From Paramecium tetraurelia (lineage: Eukaryota; Ciliophora; Oligohymenophorea; Peniculida; Parameciidae), in NCBI RefSeq assembly GCF_000165425.1, contig NW_001798955.1, positions 124,001 to 188,000 of the forward strand: a DNA stretch of 64,000 nucleotides. Direction: 5' to 3'. Made by a program: the position numbers and the translations under genes. This document shows positions 1,843-64,000 of the stretch, one piece after another. The notes below the pieces were generated by a model, which saw only the letters and a program-made list of their open reading frames with translations, made no database searches and had not been told where the DNA came from. Each line of letters opens with the position of its first letter. The stretch's first letter is position 1.

Positions 1843-1849
1843 TAATAAT

Positions 1850-7674: not shown

Positions 7675-7710
7675 TATATTTTAATATAAATATTATATAC
7701 AAATGCATTA

Positions 7711-10700: not shown

Positions 10701-13700
10701 TTTGATGACATTAAAATTGTCATCTTTATTAGAAGCAATCACTGTAATTGTCTTAATAAGAGCATTTGACAATTATTGTTTATTCCCTATCATGCTCTTC
10801 TCTAACTTTTTAGTCAATTATTGCATGAGACTTATTCTTCTATCAAAATCAAATTGGCTACAGATGTACCCATACATTTAAATAGAAACATCTTGTAAAG
10901 TTAAATAGTGTGATTTATTAGCGTCTGTCAATTTGTGTTTATGATTATTCAATTCACCTCCTGCGTAAAATATATAAAAATCTAAAAGAGGCAACATAAT
11001 TTTAGATATTGAATCAATCAAAAGAATTGGAATTTATGACAATCTTTTCTAAATCAATTGAACACCCTTGATTCTTTTGGTTAATTATATATCAAATAGT
11101 AAATTGAATACATTTTAATCGGCATTCTCATTCTCAAACAACACTTTAAATTCACAATAATTGCTATCATATTATTCATCAATCATATTTAATGGTTGAT
11201 TATTCAGAATTTATTATGTGTATTCATCTATCTTTATGCATAATAAATATTATTCAAATAATTAAATTGCAGCTTTAACTGAAGTTTCTTCGTTGATTTT
11301 CATTATTTAAATCATTTAAGGTAGATAATTTTATTTTATATAATCAGATTGTATATTCTTACTTAAATAACTCTTAAATATCTCTAAAACTGAAATTCTA
11401 ATTGATAATTCTGAACTTGTTAATAAATAAAAGCAATTTTATAAAATTAATTCAGTTGTTTGTTAATTATTGTGGATGATCTTTTAAAATTGTAAACAAG
11501 CCTCTAAGCACTTTTCAAATTCAATCTCTTCAGTTACCTGATTTCTTTAGTTCATTGCCTTTAATAGATAAACGTCGTTTTCATTTAAAGGGTATTATTC
11601 CTTAAATTTATGAGCCATCGAAATTATGACGTCTACTAATAGATTTCTTGTGGTCAAATTCTTAACTAAAATTAAGAGTTTTGAATATGACTAAAATAAA
11701 TCAACCACCAATTAGTACTCAACTACTATTTCTTTATCTAAAATGCATTTTATGCAGTTATTTAATAATTTACCCATTAAATTGTGATTATATATTTGAC
11801 TATCATACAATTTAGGATTATTTATTTATTTACTGAACAAAAATAAACATTCATTCAGAATTGAATTCTTAATTTCCTTTCTATTCATCAAAATTGTATA
11901 AATTAGATAAACCATATTGATATCTTTAATTTAATCACTCTCTGACTCAATATTAGAACGAACGTTGTTCAATAGACAACTTAATAATAGTTCACCATAT
12001 TGTTAGGAAAATAAAGAGCTAAGTTGATTTGGTTCTAATTCAATTGTTGCTGATGGTTCACTCAATTGATATATTGAATACAAAATACTATTTAGAATTT
12101 GAATACAATTTCTTTAGGATGAAATCTTTTGTGATATTTACTGTTTAAGTTAATGAGCCAATCGACCATCTTCATCCTAACCTAAATGAATTTGTTTGAT
12201 GTAAGTAAAATCATATAATAAGAAAAATCTACTAAGGAGTAATTCGTGATTTTAACATAGGAATTATTAATAATCTTTTATCAAACAAATATTTTAGAGT
12301 AATTTTAATACTCCAGATGGTTATGATTTAGAATCTATCACTATTTTCTCAAATCCTTAAATGAATCCGTTATCTTATAAACAGAATTATAAATTGTTTT
12401 AGATCATCGATGTATAAGTTTGTTCACAATGATACTTATTTACTATTTAACATAACCTTTTAACTCCCACCTTCCATAATTCTTTAGATAAGGAAGTAAC
12501 ATTTTCATTTTATTTTAATTCATATGCTTGATTTAATAATTGTCTAATTATAGTGATTTATTTCTCCAATTATTCAACATTAATTTAATAACCAAATTTC
12601 TCAATCAAATTCTTTAAAATTTTCAAATATTATATCTTTATTTGAATAGGCACTTCATTTAAATCATTATGAAAACCGTGGTTAGCTTATATCAAAGTAA
12701 TTAATTCATTTTATAAGTTTAGGTTGCTTAATTATTCAAATACTGCATTCCTTCTAACTTAAATGGCAGAATTCTTATGCTTTTTCTTGTGTAGTTTTTA
12801 TTTACTAAATATTTTTGGATATAAAACATTAAGAATATATAATTTATATTATTCTTATAAATGTTAAGGTAGATCCAATTAAAACCTTATGATTTCACCT
12901 TTAAATGTATTACCATTAATCATCTATTCCATACTACTGAAAAACTCATTAATAATACCATGATATTCTTATAAATTATTTTAGATCTCTACAAATTTTA
13001 TGTTATTTAATGCTATCATCTATGTCGATTCATCATCTTTTAGTAACCAATGTTTAAAAAGTTGAATTTAAGATGATTAATGTAACATTTTCAAATGAAA
13101 TTGAGATGTTTTATCGCCATACCTTCTCTTATAATATTATTCTACTTTACTACAATTAATATCTTCGTCATACTATTATTACAAATATTTTGTTGAAATT
13201 TCGAAGATAGTTTGTTTAATAGATTAATTCAATTCACAATGCTGAATAGCCTACGCAAATACTTCATCAAAACAAACTTAAGACTCTAATTATTCTTCAT
13301 CCTATTCTAAATAACAGTGTTTATCCAAATAAGACAAATTCACTTTTTCATATTAATAATGTGTAATCAAAAATATTCTCAAAATACTTTATATATTGCA
13401 TTTAGATAATACTGTGCTCAATAACTCTCTTATTGTTTATCTAACCAATAAAAATTTAGTAAATGCAAGCCCAAAAGCATATCTTTCAATTTATTTATAA
13501 TTTGTACTTTTATTAACTAAGTTTTTTAAATTAATTATTGAATTTTTAATTCTCCTCTCATTATCAATATTAATTTTCTCACTATCGATATCAATCATTA
13601 ATTGCAATTATTCGGAATTCTCTATTTAATTTAACTGTTATGCACAGATCAATCTAATTTATCTTTTTCTACTCATTAAACCAATTTCTAAATGATTCTA

Positions 13701-15508
13701 TGGAATATTTTTCATTAAAGTAAAGAATTCTTTTGTTTATAAATTCATTCTACTGAATAAATTATAAATAGATCTATTCAATTCAATTTATTTTATTTCT
13801 GGATTTTACAAAATTTTAATCATTATTCCATCTTCAAATGATTTATTGTCTTAATGTTATTCTGCATATAACAATTCAACTTCTTCTGTTATTTCTAATT
13901 TATGTTGGCTTAGTTTTTCGATTTTTTCTATTATTTCAGAATAATCTATTTTCTGATCTTAAGAAATTATTTTCTTATTTAAAATATTTAGAGTTACTTA
14001 CAATTTATTAATTATTTATTATTTAATCTATGGTGGAAATTCTACCATCTGAATTAATTTACATAATGAAAGTATGTAAAAATTGTTGTCGGTTTCCAAT
14101 AACTTGTTAAATAATTCTGAATTATATAATTGATCTAATTAATCAGGTGTCAATTTATCAATACAATGGATTTCATCTAATTTCAATAACAAAATTAATG
14201 CTTCTTCTTTTTATCTGAATAGCTACTAGAAAGTTGCTGCAATTAAGAGTTTATAAATATTGGAACTTTAATGAGTTGGCTATTACAAAATTACTTCAAT
14301 AATGCTGGAAAATTCTTCAATTGTAATTTAGTTAAGCATTTTATTTACAAATGTACTGTTTGAAATGATGATCTCTTCAATTTATATATTATGGAGTCTT
14401 AATAAATAACCAATAGAATCAGAATCATTAACAAATGTTATAATTTCATTTACGATTTAAGGTGTAACCTTCCTTTTATTATTTTTCAGTAGTTCAATCA
14501 AAATTATTTAATCGAGAGATTATGTTCTCTATTTTAAATCTTTAAATATTTCCAATAAACTAATCATGATTTTTGGAGATTAATGAGGTTTCTCAACGAC
14601 ATTTTGAACCAAGACTATATAAAATTATGAAATAAGTTCTTTATTTTCTGTCTTCCAAATTTCATCAATAACTTTAAAAGTATTGTTTGCTAAGTATCCT
14701 TTGATTGATTAAATAGAAATATAGATGGAGTAACTAAGCTATTTATGATCTACGATACACAAAGCTCTATGTATTAAGGTTCTATTTTTTCTAAATAAAT
14801 ATCCTACAGCCTCAGAGGCTAATTTCTTGATAATATTAAATTTTGAAGAGAAGCAGACTTCTTACATTAGTTAAATGAAAGGTTCAAATTAATTTATTAA
14901 CACTTTTTCTAAATATTTAATTGCATAAGCTATGAATAAGAAGCTCTTTTCTAAATGTTCTACTTATTCAATATCAATTTAAGATAAAATTTCTCTAATT
15001 GTTGTTTCTAAATATGGATAAAATTCTTCTCTCGTATCCTTAATTAAATATGGCAAGGTGTCGAGAACTAAATTTTTGCTACTCTAGAATATAGAATATT
15101 GATACCTTTTCTTTTAAGTAAGTATAAGCAATATCAAGTAATTATTTCAGATTGACTAAGATTTAAGGTAAGGATTATGCATAATTGTATGACTCATTCA
15201 TATACCTTTTTTCCATTAATGTAGCTATGAAAATAGATTATATGTATACATAAAGAGCTTCGCTTCAACTCAATGATGTCTCTAAAGTAACAACCAGAGA
15301 TATCTGATTTAGTTTCAATATGAATGTCTTCAATTCTACGTTAAAGATTAATATCAATTTCTTCTCTCTATTATTTTGTGGTTTTGAATCTGTGTCTTTT
15401 ATCAACTTTTTCCTCAAGATGATAGTGTCGGATAACTCTAGCTGCTTACTTTGGTTCCTATAGTGTTTCTTTTTTTGATTGACGCTTTGTAGGAATATAT
15501 TTAACCAT
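7711..15508 (-). CDS. UTP20: UTP20/DRIM-like U3 snoRNP (90S pre-ribosome) HEAT-repeat protein
   Basis: A 7.8-kb gene for roughly 2,550 residues made almost wholly of paired hydrophobic helices, as in HEAT-repeat proteins. Three places support UTP20. Near the N-terminus DINLQRRIEDI follows RFKTTKQQR. Then EEFYPYLETTIREIL comes before FIAYAIKYLEKVL and ASEAVGYLFRKNR, which matches the first UTP20 domain. In the middle (10073-9879) MEILLDEVFGRLCTEKD is followed by KTKELKSKKGMQNFKMVGQL. UTP20 is a late-joining component of the small-subunit processome needed for 18S rRNA maturation in the nucleolus. Intron borders were not worked out along the whole length, so internal structure is approximate. 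The C-terminal stop is taken as TGA at 7713-7711 from a Lys/Glu-rich tail. Confidence 0.72.
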
Positions 15509-32857: not shown

Positions 32858-35800
32858 TCAAAGCAGCATGGCAGATTCATTTACATTTAAAACTGTTTCC
32901 GTCTTTTTGAGTAAATTTGTAAATGTTTCAATTTGATTATATTCTTAACTCAAGTCTTTTAGGGCTGCATCTTCTTTAGATAAGATTTTTTTGTCTGATA
33001 ATTCATCAAAGTGTTCCTATTGTAAATAAGTTGGCCTGATTGACATAAATCTATTAATTTATTGATAATATTACTTATAAAATGATGTGATCACTGCAAA
33101 TGATGAGGTCAGTAAAGTTATTATAATATTCCATTTAAGATCACCATTTTTAATTGCTTATTTTATTAGAAATATAATCAGAATTATTATTTGGGGTAAA
33201 TCTTCGAAAAGAAACTAAATTAAATATCCTTTTATTGAAGAATTAATAGCTTTTCCTGCTTAATTAGGCATGAAGAATCTCATAATAAAATTATTGGGTA
33301 TAATATCAACATTAAATGGAGCATACGCTAATCTAGAATTAATAGCAACTGCTTAATTTTTGCCTGCTAGACTTGATGCGCATAAAAGTCTGTTATATAT
33401 TGAGTTGACAAGCTATTTGATTTCAGATCATTACGATTTAATATTGTTTATAAATCATACTGAATGAATAAAACACAATATAATATTCAAACCTTAATTA
33501 AATATTTATAAAGCCAAAACAAGGTAAAATAGTATGTACTCATTCACAATAATAGCCAAGTTAAGATAAAAGCAAATATCATTGAATTAATCGTATTTAA
33601 GCAAGTTGGCTGGTGACGATATTTTTGCATAAAACTACGATCTCAACTATAGCTTAACTGGAATTAGCAAATTTATCTAATTATGTTTGCGCACTCTTCA
33701 AAACAGACCCTTATTTCTTATAATCACTTTTTGGTTTCTCATCATTTTCTTTTTGTTACTAGATTTAGCTATCTTCATTAGGATAGATCTAAATTGCGAA
33801 TTTTTCGATAAATGTTGGTACATGTTAAATAATGTTCTTATATATGTATGCCTCCAAAATCATAGAGACTCCAGCAAAAGAATAATATAAATAAAATGCC
33901 ACTTTATTAGGTTGATTAATACAAAAATCTTGTCTTGTAGCTGCAGATGCATCCCCTTAATAGTAGTGACTAAAAAAATAAGGAGCGATTAAACATATTG
34001 CTAAAAATAATAAGTTATTTATGACTAAGAAGAAAAAGTAAATCTGCTTAGTAGATAAAAATTTGTTTAAATTCGTGACTTCATTATTGAATTTATACTG
34101 CTTTGTTTATTAAACAAAGGCATTACAAATTTTATATAAAACCTTTTTAAAAAGCTTTCTGCAACCAATCGGCTTCATATTATAAGCTAATTCTCTTAAA
34201 GCATAGCCAATACCAATATTTAAAAAGTTATCAAAATCGTATTATATGGATGAATATTCAAAATGATTAGTATCGTAAAAAATTGAATAAATTGCTTTGA
34301 TGGCTTATAAAGTCAAAGTATTTTATACTCTAATTTTGGAGGGTGGAATCAATCTGATTAATTAAACAATCTCAGCTTCTGTATAACCTAATTTAAACAT
34401 TTCATCGATTAAATCGTCATCTAAATAATAATCCATAATTATCTGATCAATTGAAGATTAATATGATTTGATATTCTCCCAAATGTATAGTATGAATTAA
34501 TGTGTTACCTTTTCTAATCCCTGAGTTTAAGCATTTATAATTACTATCTTTTAGATTATGCTATTTTATTATTTAAAAGCCAAAAATGTGTCATTTTAAA
34601 AAAGTAATGTAAATGGATAAGGACATCCAGGTTCTTTAGTTGTATATTTAAAGTAATTGCAAAATAAATCTAATGTATTCAAATTTAAATAAATGGTAGC
34701 TGATTACATTCTATTTTCTATGAAATGATCATTCAGAATTTAGATATAATGATTAGCTAAACTCAAATGATATTAGGAGACTTTAATTATTGCCTATTCA
34801 GTCCAGCTTGCTGTTTTAAAGTTTCTCTGATTGTACATAATGTTATATTATAATTAGTTAAAATAGCCAAACTCTTCAGGAGTTCCTGCGAATCGACCTA
34901 CATCATTCATTCCATAATCTATATCTATTGGTAAATCTGGAGGAGGACCGTAACCTTCAGGTTAATCGGATAGATATGGTTGTATTTTTTATTTTAAGAC
35001 AGTATTATGAGTCAATAAGGTGTGTATGGAAAGTTTTCTGTTGGATGAGTTCTTTGCTTTTTGAATGGCAGAATCAACGATATTCTAAAGTTTTCGATCA
35101 TTATCTAAATTAGTGTCTGAAATATTTAATTCTAATAATTCCACTTTTGGGTGAAAGAATAAATTCTAAGACACATCAAGCCAACCTTTATGTGTCAATG
35201 AACCATTATAAGAAAAACTTAGTCGTTTAACTTAATAGACATATCCAGATGGTTTGGATGCAAAATATGTTCTGGCATTTTTTGTAATAATTTCGGTAGA
35301 GGCATCTGTAAGAGCCATGAAATGTAAAAAGACTGTTTCCATACATGGTGTTAAATTACTAAATAATATTGTTGAGCAAGTTAAATTCCATGCTTCTTCA
35401 GTTTATACAAATTCATTCCTTCCAATATCGAAATATTTTAATGGTAAATGATTGATATAAGTTCGTTTAAATTGTTTTTAGAATTTTAACCAATTTATTG
35501 CTTATTTACAAAGATCTATTTACATCTCACTACTCCAATTTGTAACTTCCAATTCTATTCGCTCAATGGATATGTATTCAAAGTATAAAATCTCTTTGTT
35601 TATTAATTCAGCACCTTCTAATCCTATATACAAACTATAATAAATATTGAATCTCTTTAATTTTAACTAAGTTGAACTTTATTTATTTCTTGATTCAATT
35701 TCACTTCTAAATTTAGATGCACCTTCTGTTAATGCTTGAATTCCGGGAGGTTTTAAATGACATTGATGAAAAGTTAATTCCTCAAGTTAACTTTACTCAT

Positions 35801-38800
35801 TATATATAAATTTTTCACCAATTATTCTTAAGGATTCCTCACTGAGTTGCTCCTGATTATTATAATAAAGGTCAAAACTCAATTTTAAATATTTCAATTT
35901 TTCATATTCATTTCCAATATTTAATTGCTCATTAAAAGAGTCTAAATGGCAATATGTAAAAGATGTAAAATTAAAGTTTTTGTTAAAACAAAATTTCTCT
36001 TACAAAACTTAAACATCTTCTCCTTTTATAGATTTTACAGTTAGATCACATACTTTATTTAATGATGAATTTATTTATTCATTTAATATGGTTTCTGTTT
36101 ATGCATATGATGTAATACCCTATAATTATAAATTTACCAAAAAATTTCTGGATTTATTTAATAAAGATAAGAAATTGTCATCAATCAACACAGTGTTTGA
36201 TATTACTAATTTTTTGATATGTAATTATTTGATCTCTTTCAATCCTCTTTCATAGAATGCATCAAAACATCTACATTCTTATTCATCACCAGTAATTGTT
36301 AATTCATCTAATTAAGTTGTTGGATTCTATAATATTTCATTCATTAAATTGCTCATTGTTTCTATTTTATCAATATCATATCCTCCTGAATAAATATTTA
36401 ATTTCTTCAACAATATATCTTTTTCATATTTGTTTTATCCATACCAATCATTTGTGTTGATTTTACCCTCAAAATTAAAATACTCTCCAATTTCAAGACA
36501 TTCAATTGGGAATAATTCACCAAATATAAAATATTTGAAGAACTTCAAACTATTATCTCTATCTAATGTTTCTGAAATTCCTTTCAAATTTAATTGATTA
36601 ATATAATATTTCTCTTTTTATTATGATTACTATATTATTTCTTTAATTATCCCATAATTGAAACCTGATAAATCTAATTTCTTCAAATTTATATATTTAG
36701 AACAAATAAAATAATTTACAAATAATCTTGTAGTTTCTTCACTATCATTTGTAATCCCTTCCATTGTAATTTCTTCTAATTAATAATTATATGCTTCATT
36801 TACGTTTATTTATCTCTATAATTATTATCCATATTTTTAATATTCTTCCACATTTCTCATAAACAATTCAATATTAAAATTTTATAGTTTCAATATAACC
36901 AATTTATTTAAAGGATGACAAATAATTCCACATACTAATGCTTTATATATTTATTGAGTTTATTCCTCTGGAGAATAAGTCAAATTCATATCCAACTCTA
37001 AGTACCTTAATTATTAAGGAGGTTAAAATTGGAATTTATTATAATGGAATAAAATCTTTTCAGCTAAATTTAGATCTTAATTCTTGATTATTGTCTTTAT
37101 TTCTGAGAGTTTATTTTCCACCTCTAATGATCCTTCATTATTATTTTCGCCTTCTTGTTATTCTTTAATTTATGATTAAACTAGATTATTCTTATTGACA
37201 TCTAAAAGAATTGAAAATAAATTATTCCATTATTTTGCAGAGATATCAGGATTTAAGCTTAAATCAATGTCTCTTAATTTAAAATATCTTTTCAAATTGT
37301 TATTTTTCTCCTTGTTTTTTAAATTCGTTATTATTTTGCAAAGAGATTACACATGTTTTTTCTGGCATTTACAATTCCTCAACACAAGTGTAGTTAATTA
37401 TTATTTGGCTTCATTAAATACGATATCTTCAAAGAACCATTCAAAAGCTTCGTCTATTTCTGTATTAATGGCTACAAAGGAATTCAAACTCAATGTTAAT
37501 GTTTCTTTTAGCTCATTCTCTTTAATTATTTGTTTGGATGACATTAAATATTTATCAAAACCATGACAATCATTTAATGAAAGTTCTTTGATTTTACAGA
37601 ATGGATTCAATGCAAACATAATTAAAAATTCAGTTTAAATTTCACAACTTTCTAAAGTTAATGAATTTAGTCTTGGTTTGATTATTTAATTTTATAATTC
37701 TATCTTTTTAATTAGATTTTCAAACACTTTTTGTATTGCTTTCTACATATTCTCACAAAACTTGATAGATTTTAATCTCAATCTTGTTAATTATGAGTTC
37801 ATATTAAATAAAAATGTTTATACAAATAATTGCCATTAGTTAACGTCAGGTAATTCAATAGATTCCAAAGATAATTACTTTAATTATGATAATTAATGAT
37901 CAGGATCCTCAATATTGATATTTTTTGTTATTATAGATTCTAAAAAGTTTGTTATAGGTATCTCTATTAATGTAAGTTTATTCAATCTTATGTAAGAATT
38001 CAAAACAACAAATTCAAATATATTTTCATATACTTATTCTCCATACAAATTTCCAATCTCTAAAGTCTTTAAAGATTTAATAGAGTGTTATTCATTTTTC
38101 ATTACCTCTTATAAAATTTCTTTGTTTTTATCTTTTATGGTTATTGTGATTCCAATCAAGCATAATTCTTCTAAGAAAGAGCATTTGTGAAAAATCAAAT
38201 AGTGAATTGAAGAATATAGTTCTAATGAGGCTCCATATGCATTTTTTAATGTGAATGATTTTAAACCAAAAAATTGATTGTTCAATGTAAGATCATTCAC
38301 AAAAGTAGTTAATCCTTCTTCAAACTACTCAGAATCAGTGCCAAATGAAGTATCTTCTAAATAAAACTTTTCTAGTGATAAATTGTTGTTGAACACTAAT
38401 TGATTGAAATGAATTTATTCAAGATAAAACCTCATTCTTATACCTTTGAATTGTTTTAATGTGTATCTAACATTCTAATCTGAACGTGAGATTATTGTCA
38501 GGGCCTCATTAAAGGCCTCATTTCTCTAATTTACATTAAAAGCTTCAGTAAAAGTTACACTTTCCATTTACAAATAATCTTCTGTAGTTGTAAATACTAG
38601 TGACAATAAAAACTATAAATTGATTGGAGTTTCCATTGAATACCTTTATTCTGGAATTTAAATCTCGACCAATGGAATTCTGTAATTTTGATAGTAGCAA
38701 TTAGAAGAGTTAGCTTTTATTTCTTTGACAAAGTCATTGTATGCTTTATAGTAGGCTTCCATTCTTCCTGCATCACAATTCGATATTGTTAATTTTCTTA

Positions 38801-40156
38801 AGTTAGAATGAATATTAAAACAAGTATTCTTTATGAGTTTATACATCAAGTCATGTCTATTATAATTTTCAACTGTTGACAAATCCAATTCCTCAAGGTT
38901 AAGAGTTTACAAAATTTTGGTTTGCTATGTCAATCGACTTAGATTTGCTATCTATTTATCATAAGATTCAATAAAATAAAAGAGTTTTAATAGAGTTGGT
39001 AATTCAGCTGGTAATGAATTGTCAAAGTTGATTACTTTTAAGTCATTTAAAATATTGTAACTTATTAATTCAAATACCTTTGGAGTCATTTTATCATTGT
39101 ATGAAATGTTCAACATAGACAATCTTAATTGATCATAACGATTACCACATAGACTCTCTACAGATACAGAGTTGTGCAGTAAAGGTTAGTTACCTAAATT
39201 ATTTTAATAGTTTTACTCATCTCCAAATTTAGTAAACCTTTGGAAGTCGAAAATTGCTGACATGCTTTTGAAAATTCTCCTAATTCTCCTAGGTAATTAT
39301 CATTTATATTCAATCCAACTAGCTATTCCAAATGATCTTCATGATAGAGTAATTATATTAAATTATAAAATGCTTTATAGTTGGTATTAGTGAAACACCC
39401 TGCTACTTTCAAATCATAAAATGATGTTTAATCGATTTCCGATTCTGCATTTGCTATTTTTTCTTTATATGAGAGTTAATCCACTTCATTGTAAAATATC
39501 TTAATCAATCCCATCGAGAAGTTTTCAAGATTCTTAATTAATTTATAGAAATAATTTCGTCTCTTGGCTTCGAATTCTTTTTTGAGAAATAATTCTAATT
39601 AAATTATGAAACTGCCTTTGTAAATTCCAGGATTGCTCTTAATAAAAATCTAGTAATATTAGTAAATAGCTTACTTATTAAAAATTAATTTTGTTTAATA
39701 GCAAATCATATAAGAAATCCTTAACATCCAAATCATCAATTTCATTTTATTTCAAAATTAAAGTAAAATCAATTGGATTTATCCAATTAATGAGTCTACC
39801 TAGTATATTTAGATGTTCCTTATCTAACTAAGTATTAATAAATTAAAGTAATGACAATTAAGTTAACGAACGTAATTCTTATTCAATATAAATCCAATGT
39901 TCTATTTTAAAAGTTCCTTTGTAATCCTTAATGCTAATCTCTCCATTCCATTCTCCCTTTTTAACCAAAGCCTATTTTAGGAATTTAAGTTTACATTAAA
40001 CTAATTTAATTGATTCGTAACTTATATGCCTGGTCTAAATGTGCACCTCTTCTTCTAGCTCTAAACTTCCTAAGTAGTAAATTTTAGCTTATCTTGTAAT
40101 TCTTAGTTATTCTGAACAAGCATTTTGAGTGCCTTGACGACTGCATTTTAGCTCAT
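32858..40156 (-). CDS. Giant leucine-rich-repeat protein with C-terminal multi-span membrane domain (paralogue 1)
   Basis: About 2,350 residues starting MSQNAVVKALKML. From about 39.2 to 35.2 kb it is built of irregular LRR-like strands every 30-60 residues (LKKLDLSGFNYG, NQLNLKGIS, KKLNIYSGGYD, LDELTITGDEQE). A linker EGYGPPPDLPIDIDYGMND and a Cys-containing segment TTKEPGCPYPFTLLF lead into a membrane domain (34.4-33.0 kb) with spans such as FFFLVINNLLFLAICLIAPYF and an EDLPQIIILIIFLI motif, then a polar tail ending NESAMLL. The gene at 60138-64000 has the same order and matching motifs. The E-D-x-P-Q motif in a membrane segment recalls XK-family proteins, but that is only a short similarity. 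A membrane receptor or scaffold role is a guess. Confidence 0.72.
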
Positions 40157-40311: not shown

Positions 40312-42550
40312 TCATTCTTCTTCTTTAGATTAATTTATATCGTTCTAATTTACACCAGGTGGTAATTCTTCATCTCTGTTGATTGTAAATACCTTCTTAG
40401 GAATTGGATCTGTCTTAGTATTTAATGGTTTTAATTCTTCTTCATTCTCTTCCTGTTTCAATATTTGAGTGTTTTGATCTTCTTACTCTTTTGATACTAA
40501 ATCTGCTTATTCTAATTATTAAATTATTGGTTTTTGTTCGAGTTAATCATTATTTGAATTCTTAATCTTTTCAATTTCTTCAATATCTATTTAGAATGAT
40601 TGAGTGATATCCAATCCTTCAGGTGGTTTAATCAATTTTTATGCCTAATAATGATAAATTGTAATACTTCTAAATTAATTGGAGGTAAATCTTCGGCATA
40701 TAAATTATATAATTATTGTAATTATTCTTTTGTCTTATTCAATATGAAGGATTCATAAAAGAATGAAATTTTCACAATTGAAATGTTGTGCAATTTATTA
40801 TAAATATTCTTTATTAGTTGTTCAATTTATGGAATGATATCATTCGATGGATCTGTTTTAATAATTTGGATGTATATCTTAAATAGTAATGAATCTATAT
40901 CGGACAAGGATGATTCATAACAATTCAATATATTCAATTATTCTAAGAATTTAATTATATTTGTAAGGGCATCTAATTTCAATAATTTAACTGATTCTCC
41001 CACTATCATAATTAAAGATTTAAAAATTATTTCTCTATGATTTAAGGAGTATTTTAATTAAGTATGTCTCTAAACAATATTCAAAGTAGGTCCTTGCAAG
41101 GTATCTGATTAGATTGCATATGTTTAAAGTATTTGATTGCACAGTTAATCTGAGTAAACTTTTAATCCAGGAACTCTTGTTAACAATTCAAAAAGCAATT
41201 CTTTAAATCTAATAGCATTGTCAATAGTGTCTATTTTTTAAGCAATAACTGGAATATACACAAGTAATAATTTCTCAGGGTCATCGACATTAATAAATTT
41301 ATCTTTCATTATTATGAAAACTATTATAAAATAAATATTTCTTACTTAATGATTCAATAATTTTATGATTGCTTTCCAAATCTGAATATTTTAAAAAGAA
41401 TTCAATAACTGTTTGAAAATTCTGTTGATTTGTAAAATCTTTGAACAACTATAAAATTTATAGTTTTGAAAAGTAATCACTTTTTTTAAAACTCTCTAGA
41501 ATCTGTTCTTAAAACTCCATTAGACCAGCTGATGATGAAATATGTGTTAAGCATTCCAATCCCAAACATCTCACTAAGAATAAAGATTTATATATACAAT
41601 TAGGATCTTGATGATTTAAAAATTATTTTAAAATATCTCCTGCACTTTCATAAAGTTGTGAATGATTTTTAAAATACTTCATTATTGAATAAACTAGTTC
41701 GTATTACAAAGATTTAGAATTTGTCTAATTAAGCAATCTTGTGTAGTGTTCTATTAACTTACCTTAAAACCTAGGTTCTAAAGATATCAATTTATTTGAA
41801 ATTCTAACAAGTTTTATTAACAACCAATTTGATTTTTACTTAGAAATTTAATCGTAAACAATTGATAAAAATAAAGGATAGAGCTTTGGGGCAACCTTCA
41901 TTACTGAACAAAATAAACTAATCCCACATGCCAAGACTGAAATATTTGATTCTTTTTATAATTGTTATATGACCATCTCTAAGTTGCCAGGAATATTCAA
42001 TGGATTTATCGTAAATATTTTAGATAACACTGCTATTGCCTTCTTTCTTATTAATGGCTTAGTATTAGTAGTAAGTTTTAAAACATGTGTTAATAAGGAA
42101 TCTGATAAATCTTTATTTGCTATAGTTCCCAAACAACTTAAAGTAGCAGAGCATTCAACATGACCATTTTTAAATTCCTTTTAAAATACATTTGTAACCA
42201 TAATGAGACCTTGGCTTTGGCTATCAATTACTAAATGCGCTGCTAATTAAGCACCTAATTTTAATTAGAAATCTGCACAGCCCATCAAATTTATGATTTG
42301 AAATTCTGCCCATCTAATGTTATTCCCCTCCATAGCTAGCTTACTTATAGAAATATTTAAATACAAAGAACAATTTTAACAATGCTTAATATCTCACTGA
42401 TTCCTATCTACTTTATATTTCGTTTTTAATATCGGCTATTGTTTAAGTGGTAAATGTTAGCTTGTCATATTGGGATGTAGTCCTTGATGTTCTTACAACA
42501 TCTGCCAAAGATTTTAAGAATATTTAATCCATTTATGACAAGTGGAACAT
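40312..42550 (-). CDS. AP3D1: AP-3 complex delta (large adaptin) subunit
   Basis: About 730 residues. The N-terminal trunk matches delta adaptin: SLADVVRTSRTT, then MEGNNIRWAEFQIINLM, LKLGAQLAAHLVI, LTTNTKPLIRKKAIAVLSKIF, SNWLLIKLVRISNKLISLEPR and YELVYSIMKYF, which is the alpha-solenoid of the AP large chains. A charged hinge follows and the protein ends with DEELPPGVNQNDINQSKEEE. It is shorter than animal delta (about 1,150), so the hinge and ear appear to be lacking, as in several protists. AP-3 sorts cargo from endosomes or trans-Golgi to lysosome-related compartments. An intron (25 nt) after LKLFF restores the frame. The upstream ATG (MFHLSQ) was chosen; MDQIF seven codons on is equally possible. 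Confidence 0.87.
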
Positions 42551-43156: not shown

Positions 43157-46100
43157 ATGCCAAGCATTATTCTTCAGATCAGAGCACTTTTGGTGAAAAA
43201 TTTCACTTAATCCTTCAGAAACAAAGAATACATATCTGATTTAACTTTGCCCGTAGTAACAGCAATAATCGTCTCTTTAAAAGATCAATTAGAATTTTTA
43301 GGATTTTTCGCTCCTCTATTTTTATCAATAGCAGTAAGTACACCTCCTAGGTCACTGCTAATAAACCTTGTTGAAGAGAAGAGTGAGAGATTTAAAGAGT
43401 CGTAGAAAATTATGGGAATGAAATAAAGATCTTACTTAATTGGATGGATCCTGTATGGTTATATAAAAACATTGATGGTAAAATGATTAGAAATATTGAT
43501 TAGAGTACAATATTTTTAATTTTCTTTTGGTGGCTATTGACATTGATAATCAATGATGGAAATTATGGATTCAACATAGAGTCATATAAAATATTCTTAA
43601 CCTACTTCTTGTACAGTAGTACAGTACTCAATTTTTCATTGGCAATGTCAACTGTGTTTTCAAGTCCAAAATTAGCAAATGAAGTTTCGACCTTTGTAAC
43701 AATATTGTCAATTTTACTTACGTTTTTGGTGTTTTTGTCAAGTATTTAAAGGTATCAATCTAAATAATAAAAATAGTTCATCCCTATTCTACTATTGTAT
43801 GTCCATATTTCCATAATCCTCAATAAGCTTTATTTATATGGGGGCATTAAAGAGAGGGTTTTTCAATTCCTAAGCAATAAGTTCGGCCTATCCTTTGTCG
43901 AATGCAGCTTTGTAATTAGGAATTGAATCAGTTTTATATTTCATATTATTCTTTTATTTGGATCAAGTATTTCCAAATGAATATGGAGTATCTAAACACC
44001 CATTGTTCTTTTTATAAGGATTATTTGGGGGATCAAAGAAAAATAAATTGAATGATTCATTATTAGATGAAGATTATACCCATACTCAGAATGGAGATTA
44101 TAGCAGTGCAATCTACCATCAGAAATTAAATATCTAGAAAAAATGCACAGTTTCAATTAAAAATTTAACCAAGAAGTTTGGGGATTTCAAAGCTGTAGAT
44201 AATTTAACTATCAAATTATATGAATAGGAAATTCTATGTTTATTAGGACATAATGGTGCTGGTAAAACTACAACAATTAGTATGCTTACTGGAATGATTT
44301 AAAAGACAAAGGGAACAATAGAGATTAATGGAATTGATCTGGAAGAGAATATAGATGCCATAAGAGAAAATGTAGGTATTTGCACTTAGAGAGATGTTCT
44401 TTACGTTTCTTTGAAGGTTATAGAGATGCTAATATTCATGGGTAGAGTCAAAGGTTTAGAGGGATTGGACTTACAATAAGAAATTAATGAGATCATTGAG
44501 GTTACTGAATTAGAAGAAGACAGAGATAAATTAATTAAAGAATTAAGTGGAGGAAGTAAGAGAAAATTATCATTGGCTATTGCATTGATTGGTGGATCCT
44601 CTGTCATTTTCTTAGATGAACCAACAAGTGGTATGGATGCATAATCAAGAAGAATCATTTGGGAGATCTTATAGAAAGTGAGATAATAAAATAGAACATT
44701 GATATTAACAACACATCATTTAGATGAAGCTGAAGTATTAGCTGATAGAATCACTATCATGGCAGCAGGAAAATTACTGGCTTGTGGTAAATGTGATTAT
44801 ATTAAAACTAATTTTGGAGAGGGTTATCATTTATCAATCACTAGTTAGAATTAAAAGATATTATAGGCTTGTTCAGATTAGGTACTGTCTATTATCTAAG
44901 AAGCTTAAAATGATCCTTAATCTTAATCTGATACTAGAATATTTTTAATACCTTTCAAAAGTAAACCAAAATTGGATTAATTAATTGGAGCCATTACTAA
45001 ATAATTTTAGAATGAAATCGTTATTAATTTGAAATTGAATTCTTTGGAAGATGCTTTCATTAATATTGGAATGGATGAAGAGAAATTTATCAAAAAGGCC
45101 AAAGGAAGTAAAGCAAGTGTGAATGATAGTGAAATAGCTATGGAATAAGAGGTTGAATAACAAAGAGACATTAAAATTCCAAAGTGTTTAAATGATCCAC
45201 CTGTGTATTCATTTAAATAACAATTCACTGCTATCTTCTTAAGAAAGTTTTACACAACTTCAAGAACATTTAGTAATTATATTTCAATTGTTATACCTTT
45301 CACTTTGATAGTTATTGGAACTTTGATTATTGATGAAATCAACTTAGATTTTCTGAAAGATGACAAAAATTTAGAGTAATATTTTAAATTGGTGCTTATT
45401 TCATTATTTGTAATTCTTGCATTTTGCTTTAATTCCTCTTTATTTATTACTTTACCAGTATTAGAAAGAGAGTTCAATCTAAAATACGCTTTAACAGTAA
45501 TGGGTTGTAGAGTACTTCCTTATTGGATAGGAACTTATGCATTTGACTTTTTACTATACTCTTTCTTTGTGATCACATTTGTGATATTCAGTTACATTAT
45601 GCAATTATCATTTGTTACTGATCATATGGGATATGTAGTATTCGCATTTGTCACCTTTGGTTTTGCTTATATTTCATTTTCATACTTTGCTGGCATTTTA
45701 ATATATAAGAAAACATCCACAGCTATGAAGACCTTCCCATTCTTAAACTTTTTCATAGTTTATTGTATGCCTTAAAACTTTTGGGGTATATGCGCTTTGT
45801 TGTGGTAAAAGGAAATTGGAAGTCCTGCCTTAATAGAGTTTTTAATAAAGTCCATTGAATGTATATTTTCCTTTTTAAGTCCATTCTTTGCCTTCTAAAG
45901 AGCCTTTTAGAATATCATAAAGATAGATGTCACTCCTAACAACAATCAACCACCGCCTTTAACTACAGAAACCCTCTATTATTCTATTGCAATGTTTTAT
46001 TAAGGAATCATTTTCTTCATCCTAACACTTTATTTGGAAGGCAGATAATTCAAGTAGGTAGCTAATAATTTAGAGAATAATGATGTAAAAAGAAGTGTTA

Positions 46101-47135
46101 GAGTTGATCAATAAGTCATAGACTAAGAATAAAATTTATTAAAATCAAATGATCCTGTTAAAATGTATAGATTGTAAAAGGTATATGAGAATGGATGTGT
46201 TGCACTTCAAAACGTAAGTGTTTCAATTTAAAAACAGAAGATCCTCGGACTTCTTGGTCCCAATGGATCTGGAAAATCAACTATTTTTAATATCCTGACC
46301 TCCTTAATTAATAAGAGTGGTGGACAAGTAAAAATAAAAAATTAAGAAGTTCATCGAGGAAAACATGAAGTATTTTAAGATGTTGGTATCTGTCCATAAT
46401 TTGATTGCATCTGGGAGAATTTAACACCAAATGAGCATTTATATCTGTTTGGCAGAATGAAAGGATTATCTGGAGCAGATTTAAGTGAGTCAGTTACCTA
46501 CTTTTTGTAAACAATGCAATTAGAGGAGTATATTAATAGAGAAAGTGGTCGATTATCAGGTGGAAACAAAAGGAAATTGTGTGTTAGTAATGCCTTAATT
46601 GGAGGACCATGCATTCAATTCTTTGATGAACCAAGTACAGGAGTTGATCCAATAGCCAGAAGATTCTTATGGAGAACTTTGAAATTGGGAGTTCAATTGA
46701 GACAAAGCAGTGTAATGTTGACTACTCATACTATGGATGAAGCTGAGAATTTGTGTGATAAAATTGCAATTTTAGTAAAGGGATAAGTTTATTGTTTGGG
46801 AAGTCCACAAGAGTTGAGAATCAAATATGGGGATGGCTATGATATCTAATTAAGAGAGTATAAGAATAGATAAGAGATTACTCAATTTCTGAATAGACAA
46901 TTCTAAAATATCACAGAAATCATATAAAAGGATCAAGAAAATTTATAATTCCATGTAATCTATATTGAGCTATTTTTATTAGATTCCAAGTTAGTCTTTC
47001 GATTTCAGCAAAGCCTATTTCTCATTGACAGAACTTGTCTAAAAACAGTTGATCCATGATTTCTCAATCAATCAATCATCTTTAGAATCAGTATTTTTGT
47101 AATTTTCAAAATCCCAACAAGATTAATATAATTGA
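43157..47135 (+). CDS. ABCA-subfamily full ABC transporter
   Basis: About 1,290 residues in the order TMD1-NBD1-TMD2-NBD2. NBD1 has Walker [10 protein letters not shown], signature [12 protein letters not shown] and Walker [16 protein letters not shown]2 has [19 protein letters not shown] and [12 protein letters not shown], with the H-loops TTHHLDEAE and [25 protein letters not shown] in TMD1 is typical of ABCA proteins, as is the regulatory segment after each NBD. TMD1 lacks the long luminal loop of animal ABCAs. Short introns include one of 28 nt near the end (starting GTAATCTATATTG); reading through it would give a false early stop at an ATC-CAT-GAT stretch. ABCA proteins move lipids; substrate here unknown. 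Confidence 0.92.
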
Positions 47136-47285: not shown

Positions 47286-49472
<2,187 letters not shown>

Positions 49473-57076: not shown

Positions 57077-59124
57077 ATGTTAACAAGAAGAAAAAGTTCT
57101 GAATTAATTGAACCAGAGATTGTTAAAAAGGTCAAAGGAATCGATGAGAGCAACTTGAAAGCATATATAAAAAACAAGCAAACAAGAAAAGTTTTAGAAG
57201 TAAGAATTTAAAATTAACAAAAAAGGGTAGAGGCATCTCAAATTTATTCCCAATTCAATAGTAATGTTTTGAAACAATTTACAATGGAGATGATATTATA
57301 GGGTAGGATAGAACAGGTTCAGGTAAAACTCTTGCATATTGCCTCCCAATTCTTGAAAGAATAAGAGGATTAGGATTAAAATAAAATAAAAATCCTTATG
57401 TATTAGTATTATTACCAACAAGAGAATTGGCAATCCAAGTAACTACTGAATTTAATACTATTTTACATAAAGAAAATGAATACAGAATTTATAGTATATA
57501 TGGTGGTACAGATCTAAGAAACTAAATTGATTAAGTGAGATAAGGATGTGAAATAGTAGTTGGAACACCTGGAAGAATATAGGATCTTTTGGAAAGAAAG
57601 GTTCTAAAATTAGATGAAATTCAAGTGGTTGTTTTGGATGAGGCAGATCAAATGTTGAATTTTGGATTTTAAGAAAATATTGAAAAGATCATGTCATATT
57701 TCAATGAAAGAAAAATTTAAATGCTATTATTTAGTGCTACTATACCTGATTGGGTAAAGGAACTATCACACAAATATATGGAAGCCAATACCAAACATAT
57801 TAATTTAATTAAGAGACATGAGGTAACTCTATTAATCTAAATATTTAGACTTAAACTTCAACAACTGTCAAACATTATGCCCTCTAATGTGCAAGAAATC
57901 AATTAAGCGGTGCAATAGGTGATGTAGTTTCAGTTTATGGTGGAAGACATGCAAGAACTATTATCTTTTGTGAGACTAAAAGAGAATGCAATGAAATTAT
58001 TTTGCATTCAAAATTACCAGCTGAAACATAACCATTACATGGAGACATTCCTTAATAATAAAGAACAGTGACATTTGAAGGATTTAAAAATGGAAAATTC
58101 AAATGTTTAGTTGCAACCAATGTTGCAGCTAGAGGATTGGATTTCCCATAAGTAGATTTAATTATTTAATGCAATCCTCCTAAAGATATTGAATCATATA
58201 TCCACAGATCAGGAAGAACAGGTAGAGCTGGAAAGGATGGAGTATGTATCACTTTCTATTCAAAGAAGGATATGGGTTTGATTGAAAGAGTGGAGAGAGT
58301 AGCTAAAATAAAATTCATAAAAATTTCTGCTCCTCAACATTAAGATATTATCAAGGCAAGCTCAAGAGATTTATAAACTAGTTTATAAGTAGTTAGTAAA
58401 GAGACTTGTTGATATGTTTTAACCTGTGGCTTAAGAGATCATTTCTAGATGTGATCCAGTAGAAGCCTTGGCTAGAGCCTTAGCATGTGTGAGTGGATAT
58501 AAAGACAAACTATAGAATAGATCTATGTTAGGATCTTTTGAGGGATATATAACATAAGTGTTAAGATCATCAACTCCATTCTAAGCTTGTGGTTATATTT
58601 GGAAGTTCTTAAAGAATAACTTTTCAGAATAGATTTGCAATAGTATTAAGGGTATGAAAAAAATAAGAAATGAGAACGGTGTTGCATTTGATATTAGTGA
58701 AGATGTCAAGGAAGAATTTGAAAATCAATACTAGGAGATATCACAAAATGGATATTGCAGAGGAATTGAAATTGAATAAGCCACTAGTCTTCCAGATATA
58801 ATTGAAGAATAATTTTAATCACATCAAAACTATCATTAATAACCAACAGTTTAAGTCTCACAAACAGTTAAAAAGGAATAAGAAATATTTATAGGAGGGT
58901 TAGATTTTAAGATTACAGAAGATGAAATTAAAAATGAATTCAAAAATAGAGGAGTTGAGTTATTCAATCTCAGATTATTAAGAGGCTAGGATGGTTAATC
59001 AAAAGGATCTGCTTTTGGAGTGTGTAGAACTAAAGAAATGGTATCAGTGGCTATAAAATAAAATGGAACTAAATTCAGAGGAAGAAACGTTCGTGTAAAT
59101 ATGGCAAATGAAAAACCTAAATGA
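57077..59124 (+). CDS. DEAD-box RNA helicase of the DDX21/Gu type with GUCT and C-terminal RRM
   Basis: About 660 residues. Helicase motifs in order: Q motif region [11 protein letters not shown], motif I RTGSGKT, Ia PTRELA, GG, Ib [60 protein letters not shown] then leads into the GUCT domain ([14 protein letters not shown]) and an RRM with RNP2 IFIGGL and RNP1 [11 protein letters not shown]21-type helicases unwind RNA in the nucleolus for rRNA synthesis and processing. A 26-nt intron sits before GRGISN and another 26-nt one after KRHE. At 58381-58396 the frame changes across 16 nt that begin GT and end AG, so either a 16-nt intron or a sequence error lies there. Confidence 0.9.
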
Positions 59125-60137: not shown

Positions 60138-63100
60138 TCATACCATGCTATCAGAATCATTTTTCTTTATAATTAGGCTTTATTCAACATTTCTTTCTGA
60201 AGCAGAAAATGCATCATATTTTTATAGCATTTTCATCTCATTTGACAAATGGGCAATTTTATAATCATATATCTGATAATTGGTTCTTTCTAGTTTATCA
60301 AAGTCGGTTTAAGAGATGGTTGAAGGTCTCAACTTCATAAATCTAGAATTAATTGTTGAAATACTTAAAAAAGGAAATGATTATGGTGACTATCGAAGTG
60401 CCTAAAGTAATGTAAATGGACCAACCTAGAGTAAGTTATTTTGATATTGTCATTTTATAGATAAAAGTCAATTACAAAGTCAACTAAGGAACATCTTCAA
60501 ATATAAATTTGATGAGGTAATTCTATTTAATAATTAGAAATAACAATAATTACTTTTATTGATTTATTCAAACTTTTACCAGCAGCATTTGGTATCAATT
60601 TTCTAATTATCCATCTATTTGGAAATACGCTAACATTATACGGGGCCACCATATCTAGGATTTAAGCTAAAGCAGCATTTCTTCCAACAGTGCAAAGATC
60701 AAAAAAGTCATTAATTGTCTAAGTAGATAAATATTTGGTTTGTAATTTAATTCTCTGGATTCTTCGAATTAGTACTTCAATGAAATATATTAGATAAATG
60801 GCTAAATTAAATACTGTAATAATTAAAGCAGCGTAATATAGAGAATCTTGTTTACAATTAAAACAGTTGATGATAAAAACTACATCATTGTATAGATCAT
60901 ATTTTGAGAGTTGAGATAGGGTGAGAGTAATCAAAAATTGAATACTCTAAGCATAAGATGAATTCACAAATTCTTTTATGTTGCTGTTAAACTTTGTCAA
61001 ATAATCCTTGCTATTTTCACCATTCTCTTTTAAATGATGTTATTCATCTAATGGAGTCACTCTATTTTGCTAAATGAATCCCAAAATGGATTATTTCTAT
61101 GCATCCTAATTGTCTTAAGTGTTTTCATCGATATCTATCAATTTAGAGACATGTGAAGGGATTAATGCCACTATTTATTTGTATAAGAGAGACTCAAATA
61201 TAAGAGTTATAACAGCAAATCCATAATATGAATAAGTTGCAATTTAATTTACTCCCTTCTTGCACAAGTCTTCTTAACTGTCTAAATCTTTGATAGTAAG
61301 CAATATTGGAGATCCAATACACATAAATAAATAGATTAAAGTCAACACAATCAAAAAATCAAAATACAATAAAGAACTCTGAAGTTTCTAATTTAATTAC
61401 TTAATTTCTAGAGAGTAGGAATATTTATTTGCATCTGAAACAAAGATTGATAACAAGAAATATAGAATTTTCTTAAAGAAAATGAGAATTTTGGACTAAA
61501 AGTTGATTCCATAAACTAATGCTCTAATTGAATAACCAATTCCATTATTTAAGACTCTTCTATGATCATACGAAATGTGTGAATATTAAAAGTAGTTACT
61601 TTCATATAAAACTGAATATATTCCTTTAATTGCTTATAGGGTTAAACTATTCTATATGATGATATGTGATGGTGGTACTACTCTAATGAATTTAACAATA
61701 TCTCTTTCAGTATNNNNNNNNNNNNNNNNNNNNNNNNNNNNNNNNNNNNNNNNNNNNNNNNNNNNNNNNNNNNNNNNNNNNNNNNNNNNNNNNNNNNNNN
61801 NNNNNNNNNNNNNNNNNNNNNNNNNNNNNNNNNNNNNNNNNNNNNNNNNNNNNNNNNNNNNNNTACTTTGGTTTTTTCAAGCGGTGGGAAAAAGGGTTTC
61901 TACTAAAGTTATTTTAGATATTTGCGAAGTACTAAAGAAGTCTTGGCATCTTTGATTGAACAATCCTGAAAGTGGATATGGATTGCCAATACCATTATCA
62001 GGATACTAGAACAAATTAAATAACTAATCCAAACAATAATAAGAAAATGAGTATTCCTTCTCAAGACTTAATTGTGGTAAAACCTATAAAAAGTGATTTA
62101 TAAAATTAAGATGGTAAGCACCAAATTTTACTTCATTGAGATTTTTCCAACAATCACAAAAATTGATTCTTCTCTACATCTTCAAAGTCTTTTCTATATT
62201 CTTCTACAAAATCCCAAATGATTAATTTTTACCTTCCACTTTACCCCAACCTGCATATTTATTTCTTTTAAAAGGTAAATCAGATACAACTTTAAATTTA
62301 TCTTTTACTGGAATAGTATTCACTTTATACAACAAATTTTTTAAGTGAATATTGTCACTTCTAAATTTTAATATTCCTATGTTTCCAAATTACTTAACCC
62401 TTTCATAGATAGGAGCCATAAACTATTTAATTTTATTTTCTTCATTTAATTCACAATCCGTAACATCTATATCTTTTAATTCTACACAAATATGAAAAAA
62501 GAAGTATTTGCTTAGAAAATACCATCCTATTTCATTTAAGGATCTATTTTATGAGAAATTGATCTCCTTCAAAGGATGCTGATAATTTAAACCCTATCTT
62601 TTAAAAAATTAGAATGCACAATTAGCAATCAACTTTGCAATATGATTCTTAATATCCATTCCATTTAAAAACAGATGAGTTAACATAGGTGTATATTCAC
62701 TAAAGAAAAACGTCTTACATAAAGACTCCCAAGTTTCTACTGATCCAAAGGTATCATTATAAGAAAAATTTAAACATTTAAATTCAAATACCTTCTATTT
62801 CTGATACTATAACCATTCTTTGCTAGTTTCAATCAAGTTTTAAATCATTTAGTTTGATAAATTAAGTTACACTAATTCAAGCCTCTCTAATTTGATATAC
62901 TGAAAAAATATCAAATAGCGACTTAATTCTTGGAATGCTTCTTCGTCAATATTTTGAGATTTGCTTAAAGTGAAGCGCGTTAAAGATAGAGGCTTTCCAA
63001 CATTTTCACAATATTCTTCTGCTTAGTTTATTAATTTAAAGATTTATGTTACTGTAATATTGCATTACACTAAAATAAATTCTTTTAATTTAGATTCTTC

Positions 63101-64000
63101 GTTATAAATTAAATACTTCGATATATACAATAGGAAATCATTTGAGATCTTTTTGTGAGAGCTTAATTCAAATTAAGCATTAATTTCAAGTCTAATCAAA
63201 TTTTTAAAATTATCACTTAGATGTTTATTGTTGAACTTTTGCAATCCTTTAAATGATTTATATTCAAGTTATTACCATTAAAATATCTTATTACTCAAGA
63301 AATTTTATATAATTTTATCCTATTCATCCTCACCTATTTCTTCCATTTTAGTTATTAATTTACAATTTAATGCAATTGATTCTGCATTATTAAACCATGC
63401 CATGGTTTCTTTTATATTTTAGATTCTTAGACTTGAAAATTTAATTTCTTATAAGGTTGTCGAATTTTAAGAAATATATTCTAATAATTTGGGAGTTAAA
63501 TCTACAACTGTTTTAAGTTTAAGCACATTTAACTTAGGTATACTATTAATTAAATCAACATTATCAAATAATAAGCTACCACTTTAAGGGCATTCGATTT
63601 CAAAATGTTGTAACTTTTAACTCTCTAACAGATATTTAGAAAATGATTGAAGGAATTGGAATGAATCTTTGTTCTCGATCTTGAAAATTAATTTTTATAT
63701 TAATGAAGTCCAATCGCCAAGATTTTGCTTAACAAATCTGTCATCATCTTTAAATTATATGGATTCTGAAATCTTTAATTATTTTATTGGAAGCTTTTGC
63801 CCAAAGATTATGTCCTTTAGGAATTGATTGGATTAATTTTAATTAAGGTATTCATCTACCCTTATGAGATGTAATTTAGTTATTTTTAATTTTCCTTCAA
63901 ATTTATCTAAAAAGTTGAGTAATCCCTCTATAAATCCACTTTGAGCATCAGCAATTTTTAAAGATACTAAATTATTAATAAATAATGAATAAAAGGATTA
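60138..64000 (-). CDS. Leucine-rich-repeat protein with multi-span membrane domain (paralogue 2), N-terminus beyond window
   Basis: Reading leftward, the part from 64.0 to about 62.1 kb has irregular LRR-like strands, followed by FKRNKYAGWGKVEGK. The membrane region (61.7-60.4 kb) has DYLTKFNSNIKEF, YAALIITVFNLAIYLIYFIEVLI and FEDVPQLTLQLTFIYKM, which parallels EDLPQIIILIIFLI in the gene at 32.9-40.2 kb. Both also share an AGK motif just before this (PNAAGKSLNKSIK). The polar tail after a 22-nt intron includes TDFDKLERTNYQIYDYKIAHL and ends NDSDSMV. The stop is TGA at 60140-60138, 43 bp from the PSMD9 stop (convergent). The 150-base N run at 61714-61863 interrupts it. Function unknown. Confidence 0.68.
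61714..61863. other. Assembly gap (150 N)
   Basis: A run of 150 N inside the membrane-domain part of the second LRR gene. The reading frame on both sides belongs to the same gene, so the gap is probably a scaffold join of nominal length. Confidence 0.98.

Follow-up and report, generated by a model that had tools for sequence, protein, structure and literature searches.

A seven-member family of leucine-rich repeat membrane proteins in Paramecium tetraurelia and its possible relationship to XK-related proteins

What kind of protein is formed when a very long array of leucine-rich repeat (LRR)-like strands is followed by several membrane spans, one of which carries an EDxPQ motif reminiscent of the XK-related (XKR) proteins? 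The question is raised by gene A, located on the minus strand of a stretch of 64,000 nucleotides from Paramecium tetraurelia (positions 124001-188000 of contig C2; referred to here as the window), and by a second gene, B, that lies partly within the same stretch. Both genes belong to a seven-member family of LRR membrane proteins. The family is best read, with a probability that we put at roughly 0.45, as LRR-controlled half-XKR scramblases or lipid-handling proteins.

The family and its LRR arm

Under translation table 11 the window contains one frame of at least 150 amino acids, and reading TAA and TAG as glutamine (genetic code 6) gives 35 frames of at least 250 amino acids, counted from stop to stop with open ends. 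Most introns in the genes examined measure 22-31 nt, starting with GTA and ending with TAG; short introns of this kind together with TAA and TAG as glutamine codons are the pattern of Paramecium. Long frames served to train an intron-aware gene predictor, which supplied the gene models together with a protein-to-DNA alignment that allowed introns and frame breaks. The seven models comprise 2,312-2,554 amino acids; four of them, for B, C226a, C209 and A, derive from alignment and may stop short of the true ends, the predicted start of C201 is probably wrong and the ATG is trusted in three (C26, C226b and A).

Searches of the genome (69,072,372 bases in 231 contigs) with three different queries led to the same seven loci: A and B on C2, one each on C26, C201 and C209, and two on C226 (C226a and C226b). 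The 1,906-amino-acid frame of gene A matched at least 18 stretches, the LRR part of C26 at least 17 and the membrane piece of C26 at least 11, the last remaining confined to the seven loci even at E <= 10; these counts are lower bounds, only the best candidates having been scored. The seven-locus family is thus beyond chance. It had been predicted to be expanded; it is multi-copy, but seven is a modest number to which that word does not apply. Patterns from the seven-row alignment A2 picked out 15 stretches in prokaryote genomes and 36 in viral contigs, none of which was confirmed as a relative.

Pairwise identity between the models is 26.0-38.5%, except for C226a and C209, which are 69.4% identical. 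Gene A is closest to C26 (36.7%) and gene B is on average the most distant member. Over 1,307 codons, the proportion of nonsynonymous differences between C226a and C209 (pN) is 0.17 and that of synonymous differences (pS) is a saturated 0.81, which indicates purifying selection; the pN/pS values are similar in the LRR (878 codons) and in the membrane part (375 codons, ending at the intron ahead of the fifth transmembrane segment). These genes therefore form a real family under selection.

The cleanest model is that of C26 (2,497 amino acids, three introns), in which a frame of 2,337 codons spans the LRR through to EDLPQ. Because this frame runs unbroken through both, the LRR and the membrane part constitute one gene. 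C26 joins the LRR arm in one frame to a conserved juxtamembrane region, which is followed by six membrane segments and then a polar tail, and this layout, over about 2,300-2,550 amino acids, describes the family.

The LRR-like strands are a genuine LRR. No Pfam LRR model scored above its cut-off in the family proteins, and a search of the genome with the PF00560 profile gave no match, its controls being equally silent so that no conclusion can be drawn from it. The seven-row family profile A1, however, matches chicken ribonuclease inhibitor (RI; PDB entry 4per) over the N-terminal half with an E-value of 7.4e-5. An AlphaFold2 model covering residues 1100-1879 in the 1,906-codon frame of gene A, calculated from a three-row alignment, shows strand-helix repeats in its residues 51-290, with block means of 69-93 in the predicted local distance difference test (pLDDT); values fall to 46-64 onward to about residue 350 and are mostly below 50 elsewhere (mean 51.8). 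Among the 50 Foldseek matches listed are RI, NLRP, RanGAP, FBXL2 and designed LRRs, with a best E-value of 1.2e-7. A long LRR arm of the RI type was thus found in the two stretches tested, and in gene A LRR-like sequence reaches upstream to about position 39930. LRRs of the RI type are known from cytosolic proteins. No NACHT or other catalytic domain was matched by Pfam in the family proteins.

Hydropathy over alignment A2 reveals six hydrophobic transmembrane (TM) segments, of which TM3, bearing D-x-x-x-D, and TM5, bearing EDxPQ, are the least hydrophobic. Nothing hydrophobic follows TM6; a conserved polar tail begins there (FMSIRPTxLxQDDFDKL). Acidic residues, numbered here by A2 column, are conserved: D307 in 6/7 members, D311 in all six that have a letter at this position, E442 in 6/7 and D443 in all seven. 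A cysteine is present in the TM1-TM2 loop in 6/7 members and in the TM3-TM4 loop in 5/7, with one more in the broken frame of gene A. This pair (A2 columns 147 and 322), situated in loops presumed to lie outside the cytosol, points to a disulfide there. Both cysteines are lost in C226b (C226:290500-300400, approximately 7200-8201 of that stretch), in which the frame is open, the D-x-x-x-D motif is gone and the Glu and Gln of EDxPQ have been replaced (KDLPF). C226b is a candidate for altered function.

Correspondence with XKR proteins

The likeness of EDxPQ to XK goes beyond the motif noticed in the original prediction, since searches of the Pfam library and profile alignment both place it, in register, on TM3-TM4 of XK. 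For the TM5-TM6 pieces of five of the seven members, PF09815 (the family of XKR8, XKR9, XKR4 and XK) was the best match among 24,736 models, with E-values of 2e-4 (C209), 2e-4 (C26) and 5.6e-4 (C226a) and weaker values of 0.012 (B) and 0.015 (C201); the matches cover profile positions 128-181, which correspond to XK TM3-TM4. The longer TM3-TM6 pieces of C26 (0.0011), C209 (0.0028) and C226a (0.0067) also match XK. Exact reversals of the TM5-TM6 pieces, used as a control, gave no XK match (0/5), and neither did the other hairpins of the family (three TM1-TM2 and three TM3-TM4 pieces). Comparison of the TM3-TM6 alignment (seven rows) with XKR8, XKR4 and XKR9 using hhalign yielded a score of 27.1 (E = 0.0047), with EDLPQ falling on E-x-x-P-Q; the XKR sequences were taken from the PDB and the family was picked because of the motif. 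This score was reached by none of 900 block shuffles, and omission of C226b (six rows) gave 32.8 (E = 0.0006). These sequence statistics support TM5-TM6 as a remote relative of XKR TM3-TM4.

A repeat of XKR9 consists of two TM helices, a membrane-embedded intracellular helix and two further TM helices; TM3 is hydrophilic and kinked at a PQL sequence, and both TM1 and TM3 carry strongly conserved acidic residues (PMC8298096). The last four ciliate spans follow the order of the N-terminal repeat of XKR9, with two spans, an amphipathic stretch, a hydrophilic span and a final span. The D-x-x-x-D motif, present in 6/7 members, aligns in register under the -mact 0 setting with a D-x-x-[TS]-D read off TM1 of XKR8 and XKR4 (XKR9 has DLVAD). 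By order and motif, these four spans and the amphipathic stretch appear to correspond to the N-terminal XKR repeat. In XKR8, replacement of D26, D30, E137 or E141 by alanine reduced scrambling (PMC8500837). D307 and D311 would occupy the places of D26 and D30 according to the motif and the forced alignment, and E442 that of E141, in register; of the four acidic residues on which scrambling by XKR8 depends, three thus have apparent counterparts in the ciliate family.

A number of results weigh against this relationship and against the function read from it. All of the PF09815 matches lie below the curated cut-off of 24.8 bits (best 20.9), TM5-TM6 of gene A and of C226b have no XK match in the Pfam library, the TM3-TM6 pieces of C201 and B have none and the full membrane domains have none in any of the seven members. 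As single sequences, only three of the seven (C209, B and C226a) score above all 238 control pieces, which were taken from the window's other reading frames; C201 (18.5), C26 (17.5), A (12.6) and C226b (11.3) remain below the best control (19.1). Taken by itself, the D-x-x-x-D hairpin does not outdo chance, its score being reached by 138 of 300 shuffles, and the place of E137 is occupied by Gln, Lys or Glu. The six spans include a single XKR-like repeat and lead directly into the polar tail, so that the second repeat of the XKR proteins has no match. A search of the genome with the PF09815 profile gave no match, although its controls were silent too. The AlphaFold2 model of TM1-TM4 of gene B has a pLDDT of 36.4, and in another model the membrane part is below 50 nearly throughout. 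The XK hint is borne out statistically, not structurally.

In the hhalign comparison neither the C-terminal half of the XKR proteins nor ciliate TM1-TM2 gave a match, and a search of PDB sequences with the membrane profile returned no matches. Whereas XKR proteins contain two repeats of four TM helices, the ciliate proteins have one such repeat, two additional spans in front of it and a giant N-terminal LRR. Since the score lies below the curated cut-off and the two-repeat layout is absent, the ciliate family is not classed as a member of the XKR family.

Other weak matches, each to a single member, were set aside. These were chvA (0.0076) and RC1041 (0.58) in NCBIfam, and DUF1761 (0.034 and 1.8), SMP_2 (0.083), SPEF2_D5 (0.026), Pribosyltran (0.2), PsaM (0.065), Dynein_heavy (0.25), YnfE, WIV_dom_3 and GP17.

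Genes A and B in the window

The ends of gene A proposed in the original prediction are both correct, and the expected order of LRR, proline-rich stretch and membrane part with EDxPQ is present on the minus strand (Table 1). The proline-rich stretch, QPEGYGPPPDLP, starts at position 34964; as a linker it does follow the modelled LRR, but it begins about 307 residues ahead of the first membrane segment. The D-x-x-x-D of TM3 reads KYDQFND.

Gene A is not, however, one open frame as had been supposed. The spliced frame from the start codon ends at a stop at position 33581 after 2,168 codons, and the remainder of the membrane domain, including the EDLPQ part, lies in other reading frames. Protein-to-DNA alignment with both templates placed breaks of 1-2 bases near 33605, 33457-33475 and 33381; with a milder penalty and C201 as the template two further breaks appeared (33556 and 33542), giving a total of five. 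The corresponding part of C26, C201, C226a and C209 contains no frame break. Introns were considered as the cause and are not favoured, because the aligner, which allowed GT..AG introns of 18-40 nt, chose none there and the segments are nearly of family length. Breaks were also called within the open LRR frames of several members, gene A included, where the C201-guided alignment placed a compensating pair, so that break-calling evidently overcalls in diverged stretches.

The chances are about even that gene A is a decaying gene or carries an assembly error and that the assembled copy has no working membrane domain. The three to five breaks fall within 225 bases and the rest of the gene is one frame across three introns, as this explanation would have it. 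Family residues nevertheless persist between the breaks, such as the loop cysteine, found in another frame as YYCE, which suggests a recent change or a consensus error rather than long decay.

As predicted, the order seen in gene A recurs in gene B, whose end at 60138 was placed correctly, but the gene continues past position 64000 and is interrupted by 150 N. It had also been taken for a close paralogue of gene A. The two are near in place only: gene B is 29.0% identical to A, and its identity to the six other members is 26.0-30.3%.

Table 1. Positions of the features of genes A and B and of neighbouring genes in the window.
Feature	Position	Strand	Remarks
Gene A, whole	32858..40156	minus	ATG at 40156, last stop TGA 32860-32858
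Gene A intron 1	39972..39994	minus	23 nt, GTA..TAG; removal restores the family reading frame
Gene A intron 2	39650..39674	minus	25 nt, GTA..TAG; position common to the family
Gene A intron 3	39194..39216	minus	23 nt, GTA..TAG; gene prediction and protein-to-DNA alignment
Gene A, best-modelled RI-type LRR stretch	35133..35852	minus	AlphaFold2 model residues 51-290; Foldseek
Gene A TM1	33987..34043	minus	Hydropathy over alignment A2 and gene A
Gene A TM2	33843..33899	minus	Glu invariant in 7/7 (A2 column 170)
Gene A, most of TM3-TM4 and start of amphipathic stretch	33381..33605	minus	Three (or five) frame breaks
Gene A AGK motif	33251..33259	minus	Ahead of TM5
Gene A EDLPQ motif	33191..33205	minus	In TM5
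Gene A last intron	33051..33074	minus	24 nt; precedes FMSIRP, a place at which introns occur in other members too
Gene B, in-window part	60138..64000	minus	Start about 3 kb past window end; stop at 60138
150 N within gene B	61714..61863	minus
Gene B intron	60523..60553	minus	31 nt; separates AGKSLNKSIK from NYLIKFIFEDVPQ
Gene B EDVPQ motif	60484..60498	minus	In TM5
Gene B last intron	60343..60364	minus	22 nt
Protein kinase	1814..2629	plus	Pfam E 1.9e-48
UTP20 domain	7938..15146	minus	2,403-amino-acid frame; Pfam E 6.9e-44
Frame of 1442 amino acids	19799..24124	minus	No Pfam match at E 0.01
Frame of 363 amino acids	25130..26218	minus	No Pfam match at E 0.01
Frame of 622 amino acids	26261..28126	minus	No Pfam match at E 0.01
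Adaptin N-terminal region	41284..42393	minus	Upstream of gene A, same strand
ABC transporter	43547..47056	plus	Two ATPase stretches and ABC2 membrane part (Pfam)
Class II aminoacyl-tRNA synthetase core	47655..48545	plus	Weak editing-domain match besides
GUCT and RRM domains	58282..59121	plus

Functional readings

If the family is indeed LRR-controlled and related to half an XKR protein, both protein ends would be cytosolic, the LRR arm would bind or sense a partner and its conformation would open or close the membrane part. The acidic pair on TM3 and TM5 could line a polar groove through which lipid headgroups pass from one side of the bilayer to the other. As a single XKR-like repeat is present, the missing half would have to be provided by two subunits or by TM1-TM2, and the half-XKR domain may move or expose lipids in either form. 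A lipid-handling role, which had also been proposed originally, is plausible on these grounds. A more specific version, in which a lone XKR repeat acts as a dimer or with the two extra spans under the giant cytosolic LRR arm, and in which this half-length form resembles the ancestor of the duplicated animal XKR proteins, is unlikely as it stands.

The alternative that survives best, although it too is unlikely, is that the membrane domain descends from an XKR-like repeat but has ceased to move lipid, serving as an anchor for a giant LRR scaffold, for example of cortex, trichocyst or contact-site proteins. This would account for the single repeat and for the open frame of C226b despite the loss of its D-D-E-Q residues and of both loop cysteines; an RI-type LRR is, moreover, a binding scaffold, and the XKR9 study describes no strong evidence of scrambling by the purified protein in liposomes (PMC8298096). 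The conservation of D307, D311, E442 and D443 in 6/7 members would, however, be needless for a plain anchor.

It is improbable that the family forms channels for ions or solutes in which a cytosolic LRR controls gating, as in the volume-regulated anion channel (VRAC) formed by LRRC8. Swelling is a challenge that freshwater ciliates experience, and the ciliate proteins share with LRRC8 a multi-span membrane part and a probably cytosolic LRR as a possible regulator. In LRRC8 the LRR is C-terminal and the pore is pannexin-like. Cytoplasmic LRRs regulate the LRRC8 membrane pore allosterically (PMC8440666). The ciliate family, however, has no sequence match to LRRC8 or, in Pfam and the PDB, to any other channel, and the match that was actually found is to XK.

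The topology bears on the last alternative. The six membrane segments place both protein ends on the same side. Lysine and arginine account for 241 of 1,679 residues in the presumed cytosolic stretches and for 26 of 291 in the presumed outer loops, with loop borders set by hand; the TM5-TM6 loop (12/75) does not fit its presumed outer placement. The original prediction had considered a surface sensor. A receptor of that kind, its LRR being extracellular, would follow a common design, LRR ectodomains with membrane spans being frequent among receptors, and a hydrophobic leader (1.77) is found at the first-predicted start of C201. The family alignment starts at a later ATG, however, C26, C226b and A have no such leader, the LRR belongs to the RI type and the six spans and charge distribution favour a cytosolic arm, making this reading very improbable.

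Compared with RI, NLRP and RanGAP, which share its strand-helix LRR of the RI type, the ciliate LRR is longer, more irregular and joined to a membrane domain. LRR genes are also expanded in Tetrahymena, with more than 1,000 in most species, many with arrays of 90-bp exons and most without a membrane span, and LRR group I is thought to be older than the Paramecium-Tetrahymena split (PMC6564038). The present family likewise consists of ciliate LRR genes, but it numbers seven and its membrane part is fixed.

A giant RI-type LRR followed by a single XKR-like repeat appears to be a new arrangement. The open-access literature matches listed include nothing on XKR proteins in ciliates or on LRR-XK proteins, and we know of no earlier LRR-regulated scramblase. 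The family bears on how XKR proteins move lipids and on how their two-repeat fold arose. If the relationship is true, XKR-like proteins extend to ciliates, and a relative with one repeat, the corresponding acidic residues and a regulatory LRR would show the minimal unit and allow tests of what the second repeat does.

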